A model generated the notes under the pieces. The model was not told the DNA's origin and did not search any database. It saw only the letters and a list, made by a program, of their open reading frames with translations. Of a stretch of DNA of 64,000 bases, positions 25,081 to 33,281 are shown piece after piece (within the stretch, counting starts at the first letter, position 1; each line of letters opens with the position of its first letter). This DNA is from Chryseobacterium gleum. GTDB lineage: Bacteria; Bacteroidota; Bacteroidia; Flavobacteriales_D; Crocinitomicaceae. Both the position numbers and the translations under genes were made by a program. Location: NCBI GenBank assembly GCA_945897565.1, contig CAMDFN010000006.1, positions 40,908 through 104,907 on the forward strand, in the 5' to 3' direction.

Positions 25081-26172
25081 GTGAAAATTCTATTTTTTCT
25101 TCTTTTCACCCTCTTAAATTGCGTCCTTTTTGGGCAGCGCTCTGCTTACAATACTTGTTCGGGAGCTGTATTTGCACCCATTGAAGGTTCTTTTTCGCTT
25201 TCCTATCTCGGAGAAAAAAAAAACAATCAAATCTGGCTGGTCTTCATTGCACCAAAATCAGGAAAATTCACATTAGAAATAACAACTATTAGCGCTTCCT
25301 TGAACTCATCTAATGGTGTTATACATTTAAGTGATGAAGAATGGTGCGGGCTTGCCCCTCTACAAAAAACACAAACTGATAGTATTTCATTTGAAATTAG
25401 AGGTCAAAACGTAGTAAAGGGTGTTGATTTAGAAAAAAACCAATACGCCACCCTTTGCTTGACCTCAAGCGCTAGTCTAAAAGATGAAATCATTTTTAAA
25501 TGTGCTTTTCTCGCTTTCGATACACAAGAAGAAGAACAGGTTCTGAACTTAGTTTACGACAACTCTTTACCTACTTACACCCTGCTGATTCGAGATGAAC
25601 AAACACTTTCGCCTGTGGCGGGACGCATTTTTTTACAGGGTGCTGCCGAGATCAACGGCGCTTATTTTGCTTCTCAATTGAGTATCAATCTCAAACAACC
25701 TATCAAAAAGGGCATGATCAAAGTAGAGGCGCCGGGATACTTTCCTGTAGAATTTAAAACAACCCGCATTCCTTTTGGTACAGGTTATATAGACACCATT
25801 TATTTAAATGGATTTAAGCCCGGGGAACTGACCAAACTCGAACAGGTTTATTTTAGCGCCGGACTTCCTGAAATTATGGAAGAATCATATGCGCAACTGA
25901 ATCGGTTAAGAGATTTGTTGATTCTGAATCCTGGTATTTCTATAGAAATACATGGCCATGTCAACTTAGATGAAAATAGTGCTAAAAAAGCACAAAAGTT
26001 ATCCAAACAACGGGCAATGATGGTTAAAAAATACCTCGTGCAAAATGGAATAGCACCAGGGCGCTTATACCCCATTGGCTTCGGTTCTACAAAACCAGTG
26101 TTTGCTAAACCGCAAGACGAAGAACAAAAAGAAGCAAATAGGAGGGTTGAGCTATTGATTCGGAAGAATTAA
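25081..26172 (+). CDS. OmpA-family peptidoglycan-binding protein
   Basis: 363 residues, starting at GTG (25081), which yields a signal peptide (KILFFLLFTLLNCVLFG before QR). Residues about 20-160 form an N-terminal beta domain of unknown type; 165-250 resemble a carboxypeptidase-regulatory-like beta sandwich (SPVAGRIFLQG...KVEAPGYFPVEF). The C-terminal OmpA domain (about 260-363) has IEIHGHV, the conserved LSKQRAMMVKKYLVQNGI and GFGSTKPV...NRRVELLI. The usual Asp of the GHTD motif is not at its normal place (GHVN), so meso-DAP binding may differ. Third gene of a run with the secreted protein and DUF4403; overlaps rpiB by 4 bases tail-to-tail. Confidence 0.88.
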   Translation: MKILFFLLFTLLNCVLFGQRSAYNTCSGAVFAPIEGSFSLSYLGEKKNNQIWLVFIAPKSGKFTLEITTISASLNSSNGVIHLSDEEWCGLAPLQKTQTDSISFEIRGQNVVKGVDLEKNQYATLCLTSSASLKDEIIFKCAFLAFDTQEEEQVLNLVYDNSLPTYTLLIRDEQTLSPVAGRIFLQGAAEINGAYFASQLSINLKQPIKKGMIKVEAPGYFPVEFKTTRIPFGTGYIDTIYLNGFKPGELTKLEQVYFSAGLPEIMEESYAQLNRLRDLLILNPGISIEIHGHVNLDENSAKKAQKLSKQRAMMVKKYLVQNGIAPGRLYPIGFGSTKPVFAKPQDEEQKEANRRVELLIRKN

Positions 26173-26597
26173 CAAGATATTTTAGCGACTCGTGTAGCGT
26201 GTCTGCCACCTTCAAAAGCAGTATTTAAAAATACATTCACCATTTCTTTTGCTGCCTCGATTGAAATAAATCTGGCCGGTAGTGAAATGATATTGGCATC
26301 GTTGTGTAAGCGCGCCAATTCAGCTATTTCTGGGGTCCAACACAGTGCACAACGAATAGCTTGGTGCTTATTCGCTGCCATGCTGATTCCATTTCCAGAA
26401 CCACAAAGCAAGATGCCAATGCTTCCTGGATTTGATTCGATATGAGCAGCAACAGGGTGCGCGTAGTCTGGGTAGTCAATACTTTGCTCTGAATAACAAC
26501 CGTAGTCTTTTACTTCATAACCTAAAGAGGTAAGATATGTAATAAGTAATTGCTTGGTTTCAAAGCCAGCGTGATCAGATCCTATTGGAATTATCAT
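26169..26597 (-). CDS. rpiB: Ribose-5-phosphate isomerase B
   Basis: A 142-residue RpiB/LacAB-family sugar isomerase interconverting ribose 5-phosphate and ribulose 5-phosphate in the pentose phosphate pathway. The N-terminal GSDHAGFETKQ phosphate-binding segment, the LLCGSGNGISMAANK loop with the usual Cys base, and NIISLPARFIS are all present. The length is typical. Expressed away from the large intergenic region, so it would be the first leftward gene next to the candidate origin. Confidence 0.95.
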   Translation of the reverse strand: MIIPIGSDHAGFETKQLLITYLTSLGYEVKDYGCYSEQSIDYPDYAHPVAAHIESNPGSIGILLCGSGNGISMAANKHQAIRCALCWTPEIAELARLHNDANIISLPARFISIEAAKEMVNVFLNTAFEGGRHATRVAKISC

Positions 26598-26962
26598 TTT
26601 TTTCTTGCTAATTTAAGGACTATTTTAAGTATAAACTTATAAACAAACTAAAAATAAGAGGCTCTACAGCTCAATAAATAGGTTGAGTTTACAAACAGCG
26701 CTATGCCTAATTGCGTTAAAAACTTGTTGACAACAGATCATAACGATTTTTGCATATGTAGTTATTTTGTATAAGCTCAAATGCGCTTGACATAAGCACT
26801 ATTTTTTAGCTTTCTTTTTACAACCGTTTTCAACCTGTTTCACACTAAAAAGTAAGTGGTTTGTCTAGATTGTTTTGAACAAGTTATCATTTAGTGTTTT
26901 TGTTTATTAAGTTATATATATCTGTTTTTCAATGTGTTGTGGTATTATAAAAGTGAATATAA

Positions 26963-26971
26963 TGTGTATAA
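26963..26971 (-). promoter_or_regulatory. DnaA box 1 (TTATACACA on the minus strand)
   Basis: TGTGTATAA on the plus strand: a perfect match to TTATNCACA in reverse orientation, facing box 2, centre-to-centre 48 bases. Confidence 0.7.
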
Positions 26972-27010
26972 ACATTCATATAATTAATAAACAATTAATA
27001 CCCGCTTAAA

Positions 27011-27019
27011 TTATACACA
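27011..27019 (+). promoter_or_regulatory. DnaA box 2 (TTATACACA)
   Basis: Perfect match to TTATNCACA; the box nearest the trinucleotide run and unwinding stretch. Confidence 0.72.
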
Positions 27020-27031
27020 TATCAACAGACT

Positions 27032-27046
27032 TAATAGTAATAGTAA
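27032..27046 (+). repeat. DnaA-trio: (TA[A/G]) x 5
   Basis: TAA TAG TAA TAG TAA, in phase, 12 bases downstream of DnaA box 2 and directly before the A/T-rich stretch. DnaA-trios (3'-[G/A]AT-5') guide DnaA filament assembly on one strand of the unwinding element. Confidence 0.65.
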
Positions 27047-27092
27047 ATATTTTAAAAATTCTTTTAAAAGAAATATATTAATATTATAAAGG
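27044..27092. other. Candidate DNA unwinding element
   Basis: About 45 bases with only two non-A/T positions before the GGAG at 27091, including ATTTTAAAAATTCTTTTAAA-type self-complementary runs. Position next to the DnaA-trio suggests initial duplex opening. Confidence 0.55.
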
Positions 27093-27106
27093 AGCGTTTA
27101 ACCTTT

Positions 27107-27114
27107 TAATTTTG
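27107..27114 (+). promoter_or_regulatory. -7 promoter element (TAATTTTG) of the DUF4175 gene
   Basis: TAnnTTTG followed by C, 31 bases before the ATG at 27146; transcription would lead away from the candidate origin. Confidence 0.5.
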
Positions 27115-27145
27115 CAGCTAGCAAATGAAACAGTAGCTTTAACCT

Positions 27146-30100
27146 ATGCAATCCACTTACAACCATCTTATTGATCAAATTGATGCTTTTATCAGAAAGT
27201 ATTATAAAAATCAATTGATTAAAGGCTGCTTGTTATTTACTTTATTTTTCATCTTAACGCTTTTAACGACATCTTTTTTAGAATTTTTTGGTCGTTTTCC
27301 AATTTTGGTAAGAGCTATTTTATTTTTCGGGTTTATAGCTATTCAAAGTTATTTATTCATTCGATGGATTGGTATTCCTTTAAGCCGTTTGTGGTCATTT
27401 GGCAAAAGAATTTCTCATTTGCAAGCAGCGGATATTATTGGTTCATTTTTTCCTGAGGTGGCTGATAAACTAAAGAACACAATTCAACTTCAACACGACC
27501 TAGATAGTCATTTAGGAAATATAGATCTTATTGCGGCAAGTATTGCTCAGCGTGCTGGTCAATTAAATATTATATCATTTGAATCGGCAATTGAATACAA
27601 GGCTCAACGCCATTATTTAAAATATTTATTACCCGTCTTTTTTGGATTTATAGCCGTAGCTTGGTTTATTCCTCAAATATTAACCCAAGGCACAAATCGC
27701 GTACTACAATATTCAAAAGAATTCAAGGAACCAAACCCTTATATTTTCATTTTCGATTCTATTTCAAACAATGTTGAAGAAGGGACTAGCGTCAGTATAA
27801 AAGTAAAAGTGAAATCCGCTCCTGGATATTACTCCCTACCTAAACAACTTTACATTGTTAGTGATCAAGGTAAGTTTCTTATGAAACAACTCAAGAGAAA
27901 TTCATTCACTTATAAATTACCAGCACTTCAAAAAACAACGTCTTTTTTCTTAACAACAAATGAATTCAATAGCCCAAAGAAATGGATTCGTGTCAATAGA
28001 AAAACGGTCTTAGGAACACTCAAGGCCTTCTGTACTTATCCTCAATATCTAAATAAAACGGCGCGTTTAATTGAAAATACAGGCGATTTAACACTTCCAG
28101 AAGGAACAAATGTGCGTTGGGAAATTGCCACAAAAAACACCAGTAAACTCCAATTAATTTGGCAAAACAAACTTCAAAAACTAGATCCTATTTACAGTCA
28201 ATTTACTGAAGAATATAGAAGTAGTGGCCGTTTAAAGTTCATACTTACAAACGCACAAACCAATCAAAATGATACGGTTGTTTCTAAAATAGAAGTATTA
28301 AAAGATGCGCATCCTGGTATTGAGATTCAGGAAGAGCAAGATTCAGTTGTGGATGGTAGAAAATTTTTCCAAGGAGTTGTTTCTGACGATTATGGATTAA
28401 GTAAACTTCAGTTTGTATATACAATAGATCAAGAAAATGGAGAAAAAAGAACACAGCGTTTAGAAGTTCAATCAGTAAAAGGCACACTTCAGAAATTTGA
28501 TTTTGGAGTCGATTTCAGGCGTGAAAAAATACAGTTAAACGACATCATATCTTATTATTTTGTAGTCTACGACAACGACGGCGTAAATGGTCATAAAGCC
28601 ACAAAGAGTGAAACATTGACTTACAAGCTTCCTAGTTTAGAAGAGTTAAATGACCAAAGGAAGGAAGAGCAAGCTGAGCAACTGAATGAATTACAAGACG
28701 TATTTAAAAAAACACAACAGTTTCAAAAAGAAGTTCAGGAATTTAAAAAGGAGGCCTTACAATCTAAAACTACAAATTGGAATAAACTCAATAAAGTAGA
28801 ACAACTTCAACAACAGCAACAACAGTTGCAACAACAAATACAAGAGAGTTTAGAAGAAATCAAACAAAGCACAGAACAGAAAAATCAATTGTCACCATTA
28901 GATGAGCAATTATTAGAAAAACAACAGCTTTTAGAGCAGCTCCTAAATGAAGTGATGGATGATGAGTTAAAAGCGCTCTTAGAGCAATTAGAAGCGCTCC
29001 TCAAAGAACAAGATAAAGACCAAACGAAAGAGAAACTAGATCAACTGCAGCAATCTACAGAAGACATGAACAAACAGCTAGACCGCAGCTTAGAACTTTT
29101 GAAAAAAATGCAGGTCAACGAACGCATAGATGATTTAGAAAAAGAATTGGACGCATTGGCAAAAGAACAGGAAGAACTCAAAGAGCAAAATCAGGAAATC
29201 ACTAAAGAAGAACTCCTAAAAAAGCAAAAAGAGCTCAATGAAAAGTTCAATGAAATTAAAAAAGAACTCAAAGAGGTTCAAGAATTAAACAAAGATTTAG
29301 CGCGTCCGCTTGATTTAGAAATAATGGATGCTCTAGAAGAACAGGTTTCAAACGACCTCCAAAATGCAGAGCAAGAAATTTCTGAGGGCAAATCAAAAAA
29401 AGCCGGCGAAAAACAGAAATCTGCCTCTGACGGAATGAAAGCAATGTCTTCACAACTCAATGCCAAACAAAACCAATCAAATAAAGAACAGCAAGAAGAG
29501 GATATGGAAGCGCTAAGAGCGCTGTTAGAAGGCTTAATTAACTTGAGTTTTGATCAAGAAAAAACCCAAAAAAGCTTTGTAAAGATCAGTACCAAAGACC
29601 CCGTATTTCGCAAATTGGGCCGTCGTCAACAACGCATTAACGACGACACCAAAATCATTAGAGATAGTTTATTAGCACTCGCCAAAAGACAACCCAAAAT
29701 TGCAACATTCATTGATGCAGAACTAAATGCTATTTTAACACATCAAAAGTCTACTATCGAAGCGATAGACGACCACCGCAAGAAGGATATTGAAAAACAC
29801 CAGCAATTCGTGATGACATCTTATAATAATTTAGCCTTATTGTTAAATGAGGCTTTACAATCTATGCAGCAACAAATGAATTCCGAGATGCAAGGAAGCG
29901 GAAGTTGTGAAAAACCTGGAAAGGGTAGACCAAAACCTGGTCAGTCTATGTCTTCGGGTGACATGAAAGATATGCTCAAAAAGCAACTCGAGCAAATGCA
30001 AAAGGGTAGTAACCCTGGTGGAAACAAACCGGGTCAGCAGCCAGGATCGGCTCCTGGTAAAGAAGGCCAACCAGGCCAAGGACTTCCAGGTTTAAGCACC

Positions 30101-30511
30101 AAGGAAATGGCACAAATGGCTGCCGAGCAAACAGCAATTAGGCAGCGCTTAGAGCAATTGAAGCAAGAGCTAAATAAAGAAGGCAAAGGCTTAGGCAATC
30201 AGCTTAACCCGCTTTTAAAGGAACTTGAAGAGCAAGAAAAAGATTTGTTATTGAAAAGAGTGAATCCTCAGACCATACAGCGACAAAAAGAGATCCTTAC
30301 GCGTTTACTAGAAAGTGAAGACGCCATTATGAAACGCGGTTTTGAAGATAAGCGAGAATCTAAGTCTGGAAAAGATGTAGAAAAAGGTAACCAAATTCGT
30401 TTTGAGGAGTATAAAAGGTCCAAATGGAATGAGCTGGAATTAATTAAGGCTATAGACCCTGCTTTGCAATTATATTACAAGCAGCGTTCAGACGCCTACT
30501 TAAATCAGTGA
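27146..30511 (+). CDS. DUF4175-family large membrane-anchored coiled-coil protein
   Basis: 1121 residues. Three N-terminal membrane helices (about 26-46, 51-72 and 155-175) precede a predicted periplasmic beta region (about 190-500). A very long coiled coil rich in Gln, Glu, Lys and Leu follows (about 505-800), with runs such as QLQQQQQQLQQQ. After a conserved helical block (about 790-920) comes a low-complexity Gly/Pro/Gln/Met linker (about 930-990: GSNPGGNKPGQQPG style), then a final helical tail. This is the DUF4175 layout of Bacteroidota; function unknown. Base composition is more A-rich than in most of the window. It begins the run DUF4175, anti-sigma-type ATPase, ybeY, mnmG. Confidence 0.88.
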   Translation: MQSTYNHLIDQIDAFIRKYYKNQLIKGCLLFTLFFILTLLTTSFLEFFGRFPILVRAILFFGFIAIQSYLFIRWIGIPLSRLWSFGKRISHLQAADIIGSFFPEVADKLKNTIQLQHDLDSHLGNIDLIAASIAQRAGQLNIISFESAIEYKAQRHYLKYLLPVFFGFIAVAWFIPQILTQGTNRVLQYSKEFKEPNPYIFIFDSISNNVEEGTSVSIKVKVKSAPGYYSLPKQLYIVSDQGKFLMKQLKRNSFTYKLPALQKTTSFFLTTNEFNSPKKWIRVNRKTVLGTLKAFCTYPQYLNKTARLIENTGDLTLPEGTNVRWEIATKNTSKLQLIWQNKLQKLDPIYSQFTEEYRSSGRLKFILTNAQTNQNDTVVSKIEVLKDAHPGIEIQEEQDSVVDGRKFFQGVVSDDYGLSKLQFVYTIDQENGEKRTQRLEVQSVKGTLQKFDFGVDFRREKIQLNDIISYYFVVYDNDGVNGHKATKSETLTYKLPSLEELNDQRKEEQAEQLNELQDVFKKTQQFQKEVQEFKKEALQSKTTNWNKLNKVEQLQQQQQQLQQQIQESLEEIKQSTEQKNQLSPLDEQLLEKQQLLEQLLNEVMDDELKALLEQLEALLKEQDKDQTKEKLDQLQQSTEDMNKQLDRSLELLKKMQVNERIDDLEKELDALAKEQEELKEQNQEITKEELLKKQKELNEKFNEIKKELKEVQELNKDLARPLDLEIMDALEEQVSNDLQNAEQEISEGKSKKAGEKQKSASDGMKAMSSQLNAKQNQSNKEQQEEDMEALRALLEGLINLSFDQEKTQKSFVKISTKDPVFRKLGRRQQRINDDTKIIRDSLLALAKRQPKIATFIDAELNAILTHQKSTIEAIDDHRKKDIEKHQQFVMTSYNNLALLLNEALQSMQQQMNSEMQGSGSCEKPGKGRPKPGQSMSSGDMKDMLKKQLEQMQKGSNPGGNKPGQQPGSAPGKEGQPGQGLPGLSTKEMAQMAAEQTAIRQRLEQLKQELNKEGKGLGNQLNPLLKELEEQEKDLLLKRVNPQTIQRQKEILTRLLESEDAIMKRGFEDKRESKSGKDVEKGNQIRFEEYKRSKWNELELIKAIDPALQLYYKQRSDAYLNQ

Positions 30512-30944: not shown

Positions 30945-31378
30945 CAACCATTGTCAATTTAGGGGTTAAAATCCCAGGTTTTGTTTCTAAGAAAGATTTA
31001 AAGGAAGCTGTTAAAAACCTCACCATTCTAGAAGGTAAAGTACTTAAAGACCTGAGCCTTGTCTTTACAGACGATGACTATTTGTTAGAAGTGAACAAGC
31101 AGTTTTTAAACCACGATTATTTTACCGACGTCATCACTTTTGATTACTCATCTTTTCCGGATGTATCGGGTGATGTTATGATATCCCTAGACCGCGTTAG
31201 AGATAATGCTTTCTCTTTGGATCAAAGTTTTGAGCTTGAGTTCTACCGTGTTGTTTTCCACGGCGTACTACATTTGTGTGGCTATAAGGATAAATCCAAG
31301 GAAGAAGCCGCGCTAATGAGGAATAAAGAAGATTTTTATTTAAGCAAGTTTGTTTCACGTGAAACAAACTTGAATTAA
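30941..31378 (+). CDS. ybeY: Endoribonuclease YbeY (16S rRNA maturation)
   Basis: 145 residues of the UPF0054/YbeY family, a single-strand RNase for 16S rRNA 3' maturation and ribosome quality control. The metal site is FHGVLHLCGYKD: the first two histidines are in place, but the usual third histidine of H-G-x-L-H-x-x-G-Y-D-H is not, with KDK instead; an Asp may take over. The upstream DVITFDYSSF...GDVMIS segment is as expected. The last codons (KFVSRETNL) are written by a 28-base palindrome that includes a perfect parS site, so the C-terminus is doubly constrained. Confidence 0.92.
   Translation: MTTIVNLGVKIPGFVSKKDLKEAVKNLTILEGKVLKDLSLVFTDDDYLLEVNKQFLNHDYFTDVITFDYSSFPDVSGDVMISLDRVRDNAFSLDQSFELEFYRVVFHGVLHLCGYKDKSKEEAALMRNKEDFYLSKFVSRETNLN
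31351..31366. promoter_or_regulatory. parS: parS site 1 (ParB-binding centromere)
   Basis: TGTTTCACGTGAAACA, identical to the Bacillus parS consensus, inside the 3' end of ybeY. It is the core of a 28-base perfect palindrome (31345-31372). Confidence 0.92.
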
Positions 31379-31385
31379 TACTTGT

Positions 31386-31401
31386 TGTTTCACGTGAAAC
31401 A
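31386..31401. promoter_or_regulatory. parS: parS site 2 (ParB-binding centromere)
   Basis: A second perfect TGTTTCACGTGAAACA, in the ybeY-mnmG gap, 35 bases centre-to-centre from site 1, ending 8 bases before the mnmG ATG. Confidence 0.92.
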
Positions 31402-31409
31402 CAACACAA

Positions 31410-33281
31410 ATGTTAGATAAATACGATGTAATTGTTGTAGGCGCTGGCCATGCCGGGTGCGAAGCCGCAAACGCTGCCGCCCGCATGGGCAGCAAAGTTT
31501 TATTGGTCACCATGAACATGAACACCATAGCTCAAATGAGCTGTAATCCAGCAATGGGCGGTGTAGCAAAAGGCCAAATCGTTAGAGAAATTGATGCGCT
31601 CGGTGGTGGTTCTGGAATTGTTAGCGATAAAAGCGCAATTCAATTCAGGATGTTAAACCTTTCTAAAGGGCCAGCGATGTGGTCTCCAAGAACACAGAAT
31701 GATAGAATGCTGTTTTCGTTAGAATGGCGCTATCTCTTGGAACAAAATCCCAACGTGGATTTTTGGCAGGACATGTGTGTTGGCATCATGGTAGAAGACC
31801 GTAAAGTTGTCGGTGTACAAATGGCAATAGGGACAACCATATATGCAACAACTGTTGTGCTTACTAACGGAACTTTTTTAAATGGCCTTATCCATCTTGG
31901 TGAAAAACAGTTTGGAGGAGGGAGAGCGGGTGAGAAAGCATCCATAGGTTTAACAGAAAGCCTGGTAAACCTCGGTTTTGAGGCTGGTAGAATGAAGACT
32001 GGCACACCGCCAAGAGTCGATGGCCGTAGTTTAGATTATTCTAAAATGGAGGTTCAGGCTGGTGATGTAAATCCATCAAAATTTAGTTATGGTTCCGTTC
32101 CTGCTCTAGCCAAGCAACTTCCTTGTCACATCACCTACACAAACCAACGCACCCATGACTTATTGCGAACGGGATTTGACCGGTCTCCAATGTTTAATGG
32201 GGCCATCAAAAGTACCGGACCGAGGTATTGCCCAAGTATTGAAGACAAAATATCGCGCTTTGCAGATAGAGACAGACATCAAATTTTTGTAGAGCCAGAG
32301 GGCTGGAGTACTGTTGAGATTTATGTAAATGGTTTCAGCACCTCATTGCCAGAAGACATTCAGTACGCCGCAATGAAAACAATTCCTGGTTTCGAACACG
32401 TTAAAATGTTCAGGCCAGGCTATGCCATAGAATATGATTATTTTCCACCAATACAGCTTAGACACTCTTTAGAGACAAAGCTTATTGACAATCTTTTCTT
32501 TGCGGGCCAAATCAATGGAACCACAGGATATGAAGAAGCCGCTTGTCAGGGCTTAATGGCGGGTATCAATGCACACAGAAAGGTAGTTGAAAAAGACCCT
32601 TTTATACTGTCTCGTAGCGAGGCTTATATTGGTGTTTTGATAGACGACTTGATTACAAAAGGAACCGACGAACCATACCGGATGTTCACCAGCCGTGCTG
32701 AATTTAGGATTTTATTACGTCAGGACAATGCCGATGAAAGACTCACGCCGCTGGGTTTTGAAATTGGCTTGGCAAGCGCAGAAGCGCTGCAAAAAGTTGA
32801 ACAGAAAAAGGAACTCACTAAGCAACTCAAAACAAAACTCCGCGAAATTGGCATCAGCCCAGCAGAGGCAAACCCCATGTTATTAGAGAAGGATTCTGCT
32901 CCGATCAATCAACAAGTGAAGGCAAGTTCATTGATTACAAGGCCACACGTCTCACTTACGGATTTAGTCGCGGTTAGTGCGTTAACAGCGCAAGCTGTAA
33001 ATGAAGTGTTTAAACACAACCCGTTGGCAGTTGAACAAGCCGAAATCCTTTTGAAATACGAAGGTTATATCGATCGAGAAGAAGAACAAGCACAAAAACA
33101 CCACCGCCTCGAAAATTTAAATTTGCCCCATGCGCTGGATTACACCCAAATCAAGAGTTTGAGTATTGAGGCAAAAGAGAAGCTGTCGATAATTCAGCCG
33201 GCCACCATTGGCCACGCTTCTCGGGTTTCTGGTGTGTCACCAAGTGATATTTCCGTACTTCTGGTTCATTTGGGCCGTTAA
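31410..33281 (+). CDS. mnmG: tRNA uridine-5-carboxymethylaminomethyl(34) synthesis enzyme MnmG (GidA)
   Basis: A 623-residue FAD-dependent enzyme that works with MnmE to modify U34 of several tRNAs. The N-terminal Rossmann motif is DVIVVGAGHAGCEAA; other family marks are MSCNPAMGGVAKGQIVREIDALGG, the FGGGRAGEKASIGL stretch, MKTGTPPRVDGRS and the FFAGQINGTTGYEEAACQG block. The C-terminal helical domain ends with ASRVSGVSPSDISVLLVHL. The length is standard. mnmG is frequently found close to the replication origin, which fits the DnaA-box region 4.3 kb upstream and the parS sites immediately before the gene. Confidence 0.97.
   Translation: MLDKYDVIVVGAGHAGCEAANAAARMGSKVLLVTMNMNTIAQMSCNPAMGGVAKGQIVREIDALGGGSGIVSDKSAIQFRMLNLSKGPAMWSPRTQNDRMLFSLEWRYLLEQNPNVDFWQDMCVGIMVEDRKVVGVQMAIGTTIYATTVVLTNGTFLNGLIHLGEKQFGGGRAGEKASIGLTESLVNLGFEAGRMKTGTPPRVDGRSLDYSKMEVQAGDVNPSKFSYGSVPALAKQLPCHITYTNQRTHDLLRTGFDRSPMFNGAIKSTGPRYCPSIEDKISRFADRDRHQIFVEPEGWSTVEIYVNGFSTSLPEDIQYAAMKTIPGFEHVKMFRPGYAIEYDYFPPIQLRHSLETKLIDNLFFAGQINGTTGYEEAACQGLMAGINAHRKVVEKDPFILSRSEAYIGVLIDDLITKGTDEPYRMFTSRAEFRILLRQDNADERLTPLGFEIGLASAEALQKVEQKKELTKQLKTKLREIGISPAEANPMLLEKDSAPINQQVKASSLITRPHVSLTDLVAVSALTAQAVNEVFKHNPLAVEQAEILLKYEGYIDREEEQAQKHHRLENLNLPHALDYTQIKSLSIEAKEKLSIIQPATIGHASRVSGVSPSDISVLLVHLGR

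Follow-up and report, generated by a model that had tools for sequence, protein, structure and literature searches.

The intergenic region at positions 26,598–27,145 of the window, meaning the whole 64-kb stretch of DNA that was analysed, is very probably the replication origin (oriC) of the chromosome of a bacterium that is likely to belong to the Fluviicola family (Crocinitomicaceae), and a conserved block within it is the predicted site at which DnaA first opens the duplex. Our analysis points most likely to an origin of the basal unwinding system (BUS) type that would be opened by DnaA. The triplet repeat of the block, where the strands are predicted to part first, appears on sequence grounds to match the signal of Bacillus less well on the strand employed there than on its complement. 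The original prediction had named the region a candidate chromosomal origin, and the GC-skew turn of the contig together with the skew at homologous blocks of relatives makes this very likely correct.

Layout of the region and position of the GC-skew turn

The region is bordered on the left by rpiB, encoding ribose-5-phosphate isomerase B (26,169–26,597, minus strand; NCBIfam rpiB above cut-off), which is the usual left neighbour of the family origin, and on the right by an open reading frame (ORF) of 1121 amino acids (27,146–30,511, plus strand), which is a neighbour and not a functional part of the origin. The 548 bp between these genes form the largest gap of the window in a map of ORFs of at least 90 amino acids, the runner-up measuring 365 bp, in keeping with the large gap with divergent flanks that had been described. 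Searches for tRNA and Rfam families gave no match within the 64-kb window. The 1121-aa protein, which has a weak DUF4175 match below the Pfam cut-off, is present in 93/100 relatives searched. The nearby mnmG and parS sites claimed at the outset were both recovered, mnmG at 31,410–33,281 and the parS-like sites (31,351–31,401) as two perfect copies of TGTTTCACGTGAAACA, which we take to be the parS motif. These palindromes (31,351–31,366 and 31,386–31,401) lie at the border of ybeY and mnmG with a distance of 35 bases between them, 4.3 kb to the right of the block.

From position 27,011 the sequence reads TTATACACA-TATCAACAG-AC-TTAATAGTAATAGTAAATATTTTAAAAATT, and the block is accordingly composed of a strong DnaA box at 27,011, a weak box eight bases further on, two spacer bases, the triplets TTAATARTARTARTAAA and an A/T tract. 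The strong or main box TTATACACA (27,011–27,019, plus strand) is the counterpart of Bacillus subtilis box 6, and the weak box ATATCAACA (27,019–27,027, plus strand) is that of box 7; boxes 6 and 7 of B. subtilis are set apart by the same eight-base step. This pair of equal orientation, strong upstream and weaker downstream, is conserved in 49 sequences of the genus. On the box strand the triplets TAA-TAG-TAA-TAG-TAA (27,032–27,046, plus strand) begin twelve bases beyond the main box, exactly as predicted, and they are followed by the A/T tract (27,046–27,110), the presumed unwinding element; the most A/T-rich 80-mers of the window (87.5% A+T) start at 27,007–27,011. A TTCTTTT-like run at 27,046–27,075, directly after the triplets, is conserved in many relatives.

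Two perfect TTATACACA boxes had been reported to face each other. Both are present, at 26,963–26,971 on the minus strand and at 27,011–27,019 on the plus strand, and the description holds for their T ends only, as their arrows point apart. Perfect boxes are at chance level, with three copies of TTATNCACA in the window vs 2.61 expected and 11 copies of TTATACACA in the genome vs 10 for the reversed pattern, and their counts were rejected as evidence of an origin; the case for the origin rests on conservation and skew. If one mismatch is allowed, the 548-bp gap holds four boxes vs 1.19 in shuffled sequences, and four were reached in 12 of 500 shuffles. The two sites with one mismatch are TTATAAACA (26,637–26,645, plus strand; offset −374 from the main box) and TTATACAAA (26,766–26,774, minus strand; offset −245), and boxes with at most one mismatch recur at these offsets in 12/87 and 7/87 family loci, respectively, compared with 51/87 at the offset of the main box. 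The minus-strand box at 26,963 (offset −48) is a less conserved part of the array: it is perfect in the source genome alone among the 87 upstream regions of the 1121-aa gene and recurs with one mismatch allowed in 8/87 family loci, and minus-strand boxes occur in 14/87 loci at −58 and in 14/87 at −59. Across the family loci the array to the left of the block shows recurring offsets and directions. In the 430 bp to the left of the block, the box pair being excluded, 85 of the 87 family loci, namely those long enough, hold 46 perfect boxes vs 3.2 after shuffling (largest 7) and 353 boxes with at most one mismatch vs 82.5 (largest 107); these loci are related and their counts are not independent. 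With the pair included, by which the loci had been selected, the count of perfect boxes is 62 vs 4.0. An intergenic cluster of DnaA boxes, as expected of an oriC, is therefore found both in the 85 regions and in the gap itself.

The cumulative skew reaches its minimum at 28,265 of the window, and no lower point occurs anywhere in the 104,907-base contig; within the 64-kb window the skew turns at 26–29 kb. A skew minimum at the region had been named as a check of the origin call, and the turn does fall in this area of the contig. As the source genome is split into 54 contigs, the skew of the whole chromosome was read in relatives. G178 is a single contig of 4.6 Mb; the 18 kb to the left of the homologous block have a skew of −0.047 and the 19.5 kb to the right one of +0.094, and among the stretches sampled along this chromosome the eight over 0–1.77 Mb and also that at 4.3 Mb are positive and the nine over 2.0–4.02 Mb are negative. 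The sign also changes at the block in two further single contigs, G155 (−0.117/+0.074; block at 1,757,737) and G158 (−0.051/+0.019); the five other stretches of G158 fit one origin and one terminus, and the eight other stretches of G155 include a negative one at 2.0 Mb, where a positive value was expected, and further sign changes. The location at a skew turn that is expected of an oriC is thus seen in the contig and in three single-contig chromosomes of the family. In G017, a member of the genus with a contig of 2.2 Mb, the skew is below zero in the nine stretches sampled up to 0.9 Mb (in one of them it is only −0.0001) and above zero in the seven from 1.22 Mb, and the block at 1.114 Mb lies between the two groups; values are weak or mixed in the four stretches that surround it, and the joined 60 kb have their minimum 28 kb from the block, which is only coarsely consistent. 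In a chromosome of a sister family (G078) the skew minimum at 3,647,125 is located 2.1 kb upstream of the 1121-aa gene (3,641,709–3,645,029), and in that region no block and a single box-like site were found.

Conservation of the block in genus and family

Upstream regions of the 1121-aa gene were read in 87 cases, 51 from the genus and 36 from other families, genomes having a match but no gene start being left out. The block is present in 49/51 genus regions, and both misses (L035, L048) end at contig ends. Selection in the genus used 26 columns up to TTAATA, and the later triplets were consequently not selected for. Invariant in the 49 sequences are T2, A7 and C8 of box one, T12, A15, C16 and A17 of box two, and T22, A23 and T25 of the triplets. 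With the 18-base pair motif no block was found in the 36 regions of other families, the best having four mismatches (L070, lacking TTAATA) and the rest at least six. A looser regular expression, which matches 47/51 genus regions, also hits two of these 36 (L073, L087), and both were judged to be chance matches.

A profile (R1) built from the 49 genus sequences matches the window once, at 27,011–27,069 (E 8.7e-14; the window belongs to the training set). Family loci of other genera were picked by strong R1 matches, and 38 of the 40 fetched stretches were used, L227 being left out as a genus member and L228 as an end piece of 300 bases. The block is found in these 38 loci, 33 of which have rpiB alongside; in all, a divergent rpiB adjoins the block in 79/87 family loci, and in some genomes it lies elsewhere. 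At a threshold of E 10 the profile is uninformative, because all 240 family genomes match. At E 1e-4, applied to 150 genomes of the order, it gives 22 matches, of which 21 fall in the family (12 in the genus and nine in other genera) and one in another family, and at least 20 family genomes are without a match among those listed, another 108 unmatched genomes not being listed.

A check free of the profile was anchored on rpiB in 30 regions, which scored best among 108 matching genomes; a single genus accounts for 12 of these regions. The block was detected in 22/30, compared with 3/30 on the opposite strand and 47/600 in letter shuffles, and the second box lies 444–468 bp from rpiB, a near-constant distance that is usual in the family. 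Among the eight misses, G134 and G296 are misses of the pattern, as a profile match sits beside rpiB, and in G101, G124 and G200 no strong profile match was found. In the remaining three the best profile match is away from rpiB, on another contig in G140 and G382 (genus g26) and 29 kb off in G292, and the pair has seemingly been separated. In four loci (L189, L190, L191 and L218, Fluviicola-like and one other genus) the place of the 1121-aa gene is taken by what by eye is a response-regulator gene, with rpiB about 446 bp to the left.

Simple patterns are less telling. A box followed by 8–16 bases and TARTARTAR occurs once in the source genome, its reversed control not at all. Over the order it is found in 25/299 genomes, 11/45 in the genus (ten at the block, that of G004 elsewhere) and 14/254 outside; the reversed control gives 3/45 and 24/254, respectively, and the strict pattern was discarded as uninformative outside the genus. 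The corresponding usual-strand pattern, a box followed by YTAYTAYTA, has 19 places in 17/299 genomes and was taken as chance, because seven of the nine loci inspected overlap open frames of more than 300 amino acids.

Strand of the triplet repeat

The original prediction had also recognised the order of box, trio and unwinding element known from Bacillus. Boxes, triplets and A/T tract do follow one another in this order, but TAA and TAG sit on the box strand, whereas the trio of Bacillus, Helicobacter and Clostridioides (3′-GAT-5′) is on the strand complementary to TTATCCACA, and hence the arrangement is not simply that of Bacillus. The Helicobacter trio is described on the lower strand and given as complementary 5′-CTA-3′ (5′-YTD-3′) in the passages of PMC8235120 considered here, and those of PMC7561715 print CTA/TTA triplets, CACCTACTACTATTACTACTATGA, for Clostridioides difficile. 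Read on this usual, complementary strand and outward from the boxes, the block contains TAA, TAT, TAC, TAT and TAC (27,031–27,045, minus strand), the middle base always being A and the preceding base on the 3′ side being a pyrimidine from the second triplet on. Since every middle base of the usual strand is A, the window agrees with the BUS search rule as worded in PMC8287927, namely at least three NAN triplets and a spacer of up to 16 bases with a peak of spacings at 10–13; the spacer from the box to the first triplet comprises 11 bases here (27,020–27,030). A preference of B. subtilis DnaA for 3′-GA-5′ is described in PMC10721633 and is outside the published search rule; the corresponding 3′-[G/A]A-5′ fits all five triplets on the box strand and is confined to the first triplet on the usual strand.

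The same tendency is observed in the relatives. After the 87 family loci had been thinned to 54 with less than 55% ungapped identity upstream, the usual strand has a purine before the middle base of triplets 1–5 in 53, 0, 0, 4 and 4 of 54 loci, and the box strand has one in 54, 54, 50, 50 and 53. For A at the middle base itself the counts are 54, 54, 28, 36 and 42 loci for the usual strand and 54, 54, 43, 48 and 48 for the box strand. A profile that holds the triplet columns had served to find the loci of other genera, and in some of these the outer triplets are blurred by one-base indels. At least three consecutive usual-strand middle adenines, counted from the box, occur in 27/49 genus and 14/38 other loci, and the window has five. 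Many Fluviicola-like genomes (g28) have a perfect 3′-GAT-5′ as their first usual-strand triplet, which reads CTA on the box strand. A small matrix of published trios scores the box strand above the usual strand in 49/49 genus and 38/38 other loci. On either strand, triplets 1 and 2 thus conform to the middle-A rule; triplets 3–5 appear to fit the box strand better.

The DnaA protein differs from that of B. subtilis at the residue with which the latter reads the trio. It is encoded by a single gene on another contig (C20; L001:1363-2757), at least 37 kb from the origin region, and in an alignment with B. subtilis DnaA (8btg) SEKFTNEFI becomes SEKFAHQFI, Asn187 being replaced by His and Ile190 being kept. 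Asn187, which is not part of the published BUS definition, reads the middle base (PMC10721633, in the part considered). At this position 30 other family proteins have 22 His, eight Arg and no Asn (best 30 of 39 genomes with a match), and the 30 best-scoring proteins of the order outside the family have 29 His and one Asn (G062). As the change is wider than the block, His at this position cannot by itself explain the block.

By analogy with known systems, DnaA would fill the box array, and the tandem boxes at 27,011–27,027 would seat the first DnaA subunits beside the triplets. The oligomer would then grip one strand and stretch it, melting would spread into the A/T tract and the helicases would be loaded. 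Because box polarity is fixed, the usual strand, on the minus side, is put first for capture, presumably from the nearly invariant triplets 1 and 2, and the purine-A found on the box strand at every third base would putatively serve a later reader, either DnaA or a helicase loader, once the duplex is open. Polarity should matter here, since the incC region of B. subtilis becomes inactive when boxes 6 and 7 are reversed (PMC6669920, passages considered).

Box polarity seems to favour the usual strand and base conservation the box strand, and the rival that follows from the latter keeps the same origin and lets the DnaA oligomer assemble on the box strand, where 5′-TAR-3′ equals 3′-RAT-5′, the block being either inverted relative to Bacillus or readable as a trio on both strands. 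We regard this as rather unlikely. It would account for the runs of middle A and preceding purine on the box strand and for the higher matrix scores in all loci of both sets, and it agrees with the preference of B. subtilis DnaA for 3′-GA-5′. However, DnaA has a fixed polarity on single-stranded DNA, the orientation of the box pair is the usual one, and a reverse filament would find few inverted boxes to the right of the block, where the 87 stretches of up to 120 bp hold 14 box-like sites in either direction; moreover, the profile behind the 38 loci of other genera includes the triplet columns, and the indels mentioned above blur the outer triplets. A more specific version, put forward as a speculation that is rather unlikely, is that the Crocinitomicaceae trio is strand-inverted or two-sided: the box strand would encode the captured dinucleotide, in overlap with a usual-strand trio that is shortened, and a His/Arg DnaA could grip the two strands at once and position both helicases from a single block of 15 bp.

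Two further explanations give the triplets a role apart from opening by DnaA. The gap may be the origin and yet open elsewhere within it, the triplets serving another protein such as a helicase loader or a strand-specific factor. We consider this explanation improbable. In its favour, the strand opposite the trios of B. subtilis carries a DnaD site, 5′-TnnT-3′ (PMC10201434), and T-nn-T steps occur on the box strand here. Against it, the block is exactly where the box pair, the spacing and the A/T tract predict opening, and DnaD itself is a protein of the Firmicutes. Far less credible still is a role of the block as promoter or regulator of the neighbouring gene instead of as an unwinding element. 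It is A/T-rich and lies about 109–283 bp ahead of the 1121-aa gene in the genus, but in none of the 38 loci from other genera was this gene found to adjoin the block, and ten loci inspected have other right-hand genes, by eye mostly response regulators or membrane proteins, which disfavours a promoter of a single gene. Further points against it are the skew turn at the block in three single-contig chromosomes, the attached box array and the lack of an Rfam match in the window. An origin opened by DnaA at the block is the reading that we prefer.

Meaning and comparison with known origins

The original prediction had stated that the trio element had not been discussed for this lineage. Literature searches did not find 'DnaA-trio' together with 'Bacteroidetes' or 'Bacteroidota', nor 'Crocinitomicaceae' together with 'replication origin'. 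BUS elements have already been predicted in 1755/2070 species with nine phyla compared (PMC8287927), a source whose main text is without the words Bacteroid- or Flavobact-. Ori-Finder 2022 labels trios automatically, according to the part of PMC10225481 considered, and an annotated prediction for such genomes may therefore exist in DoriC. Should the usual strand prove to be the one used, the Bacillus-derived trio rule would have to be loosened for a whole family, for which the replaced Asn may be a reason. Should it be the box strand, there would be a second polarity of origin opening, which is absent from the published models considered. Either way, the 87 loci are a natural series of origins, with Fluviicola taffensis as a cultured member, for testing directly what DnaA recognises on single-stranded DNA, and the series also bears on how opposite strands each receive a helicase.

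The region shares features with several characterised origins. As in the oriC of Thermotoga maritima, which combines an eTrio, a DnaA-trio and TTATT, TAG-type triplets are located inside the unwinding element; there, in contrast, three essential TAG repeats, the eTrio, adjoin a supportive, non-essential trio. The T. maritima origin also has other boxes. Clostridioides difficile oriC2 likewise has a triplet repeat between boxes and A/T tract, but in the usual-strand form of CTA/TTA triplets. In Helicobacter pylori oriC2 the boxes similarly adjoin triplets and an A/T tract, and the consensus is relaxed with one fixed base; unlike its complementary 5′-YTD-3′, triplets 2–5 here start with a box-strand purine in nearly all relatives. 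With the basal unwinding system of B. subtilis, made up of boxes 6/7 and DnaA-trios, the region has in common the two boxes facing the same way, strong then weak, the short spacer containing C/G, the element with a period of three and the A/T tract beyond. Unlike in B. subtilis, Asn187 is replaced by His, dnaA is on another contig, and the box strand carries TAR triplets, the usual strand TAY triplets.
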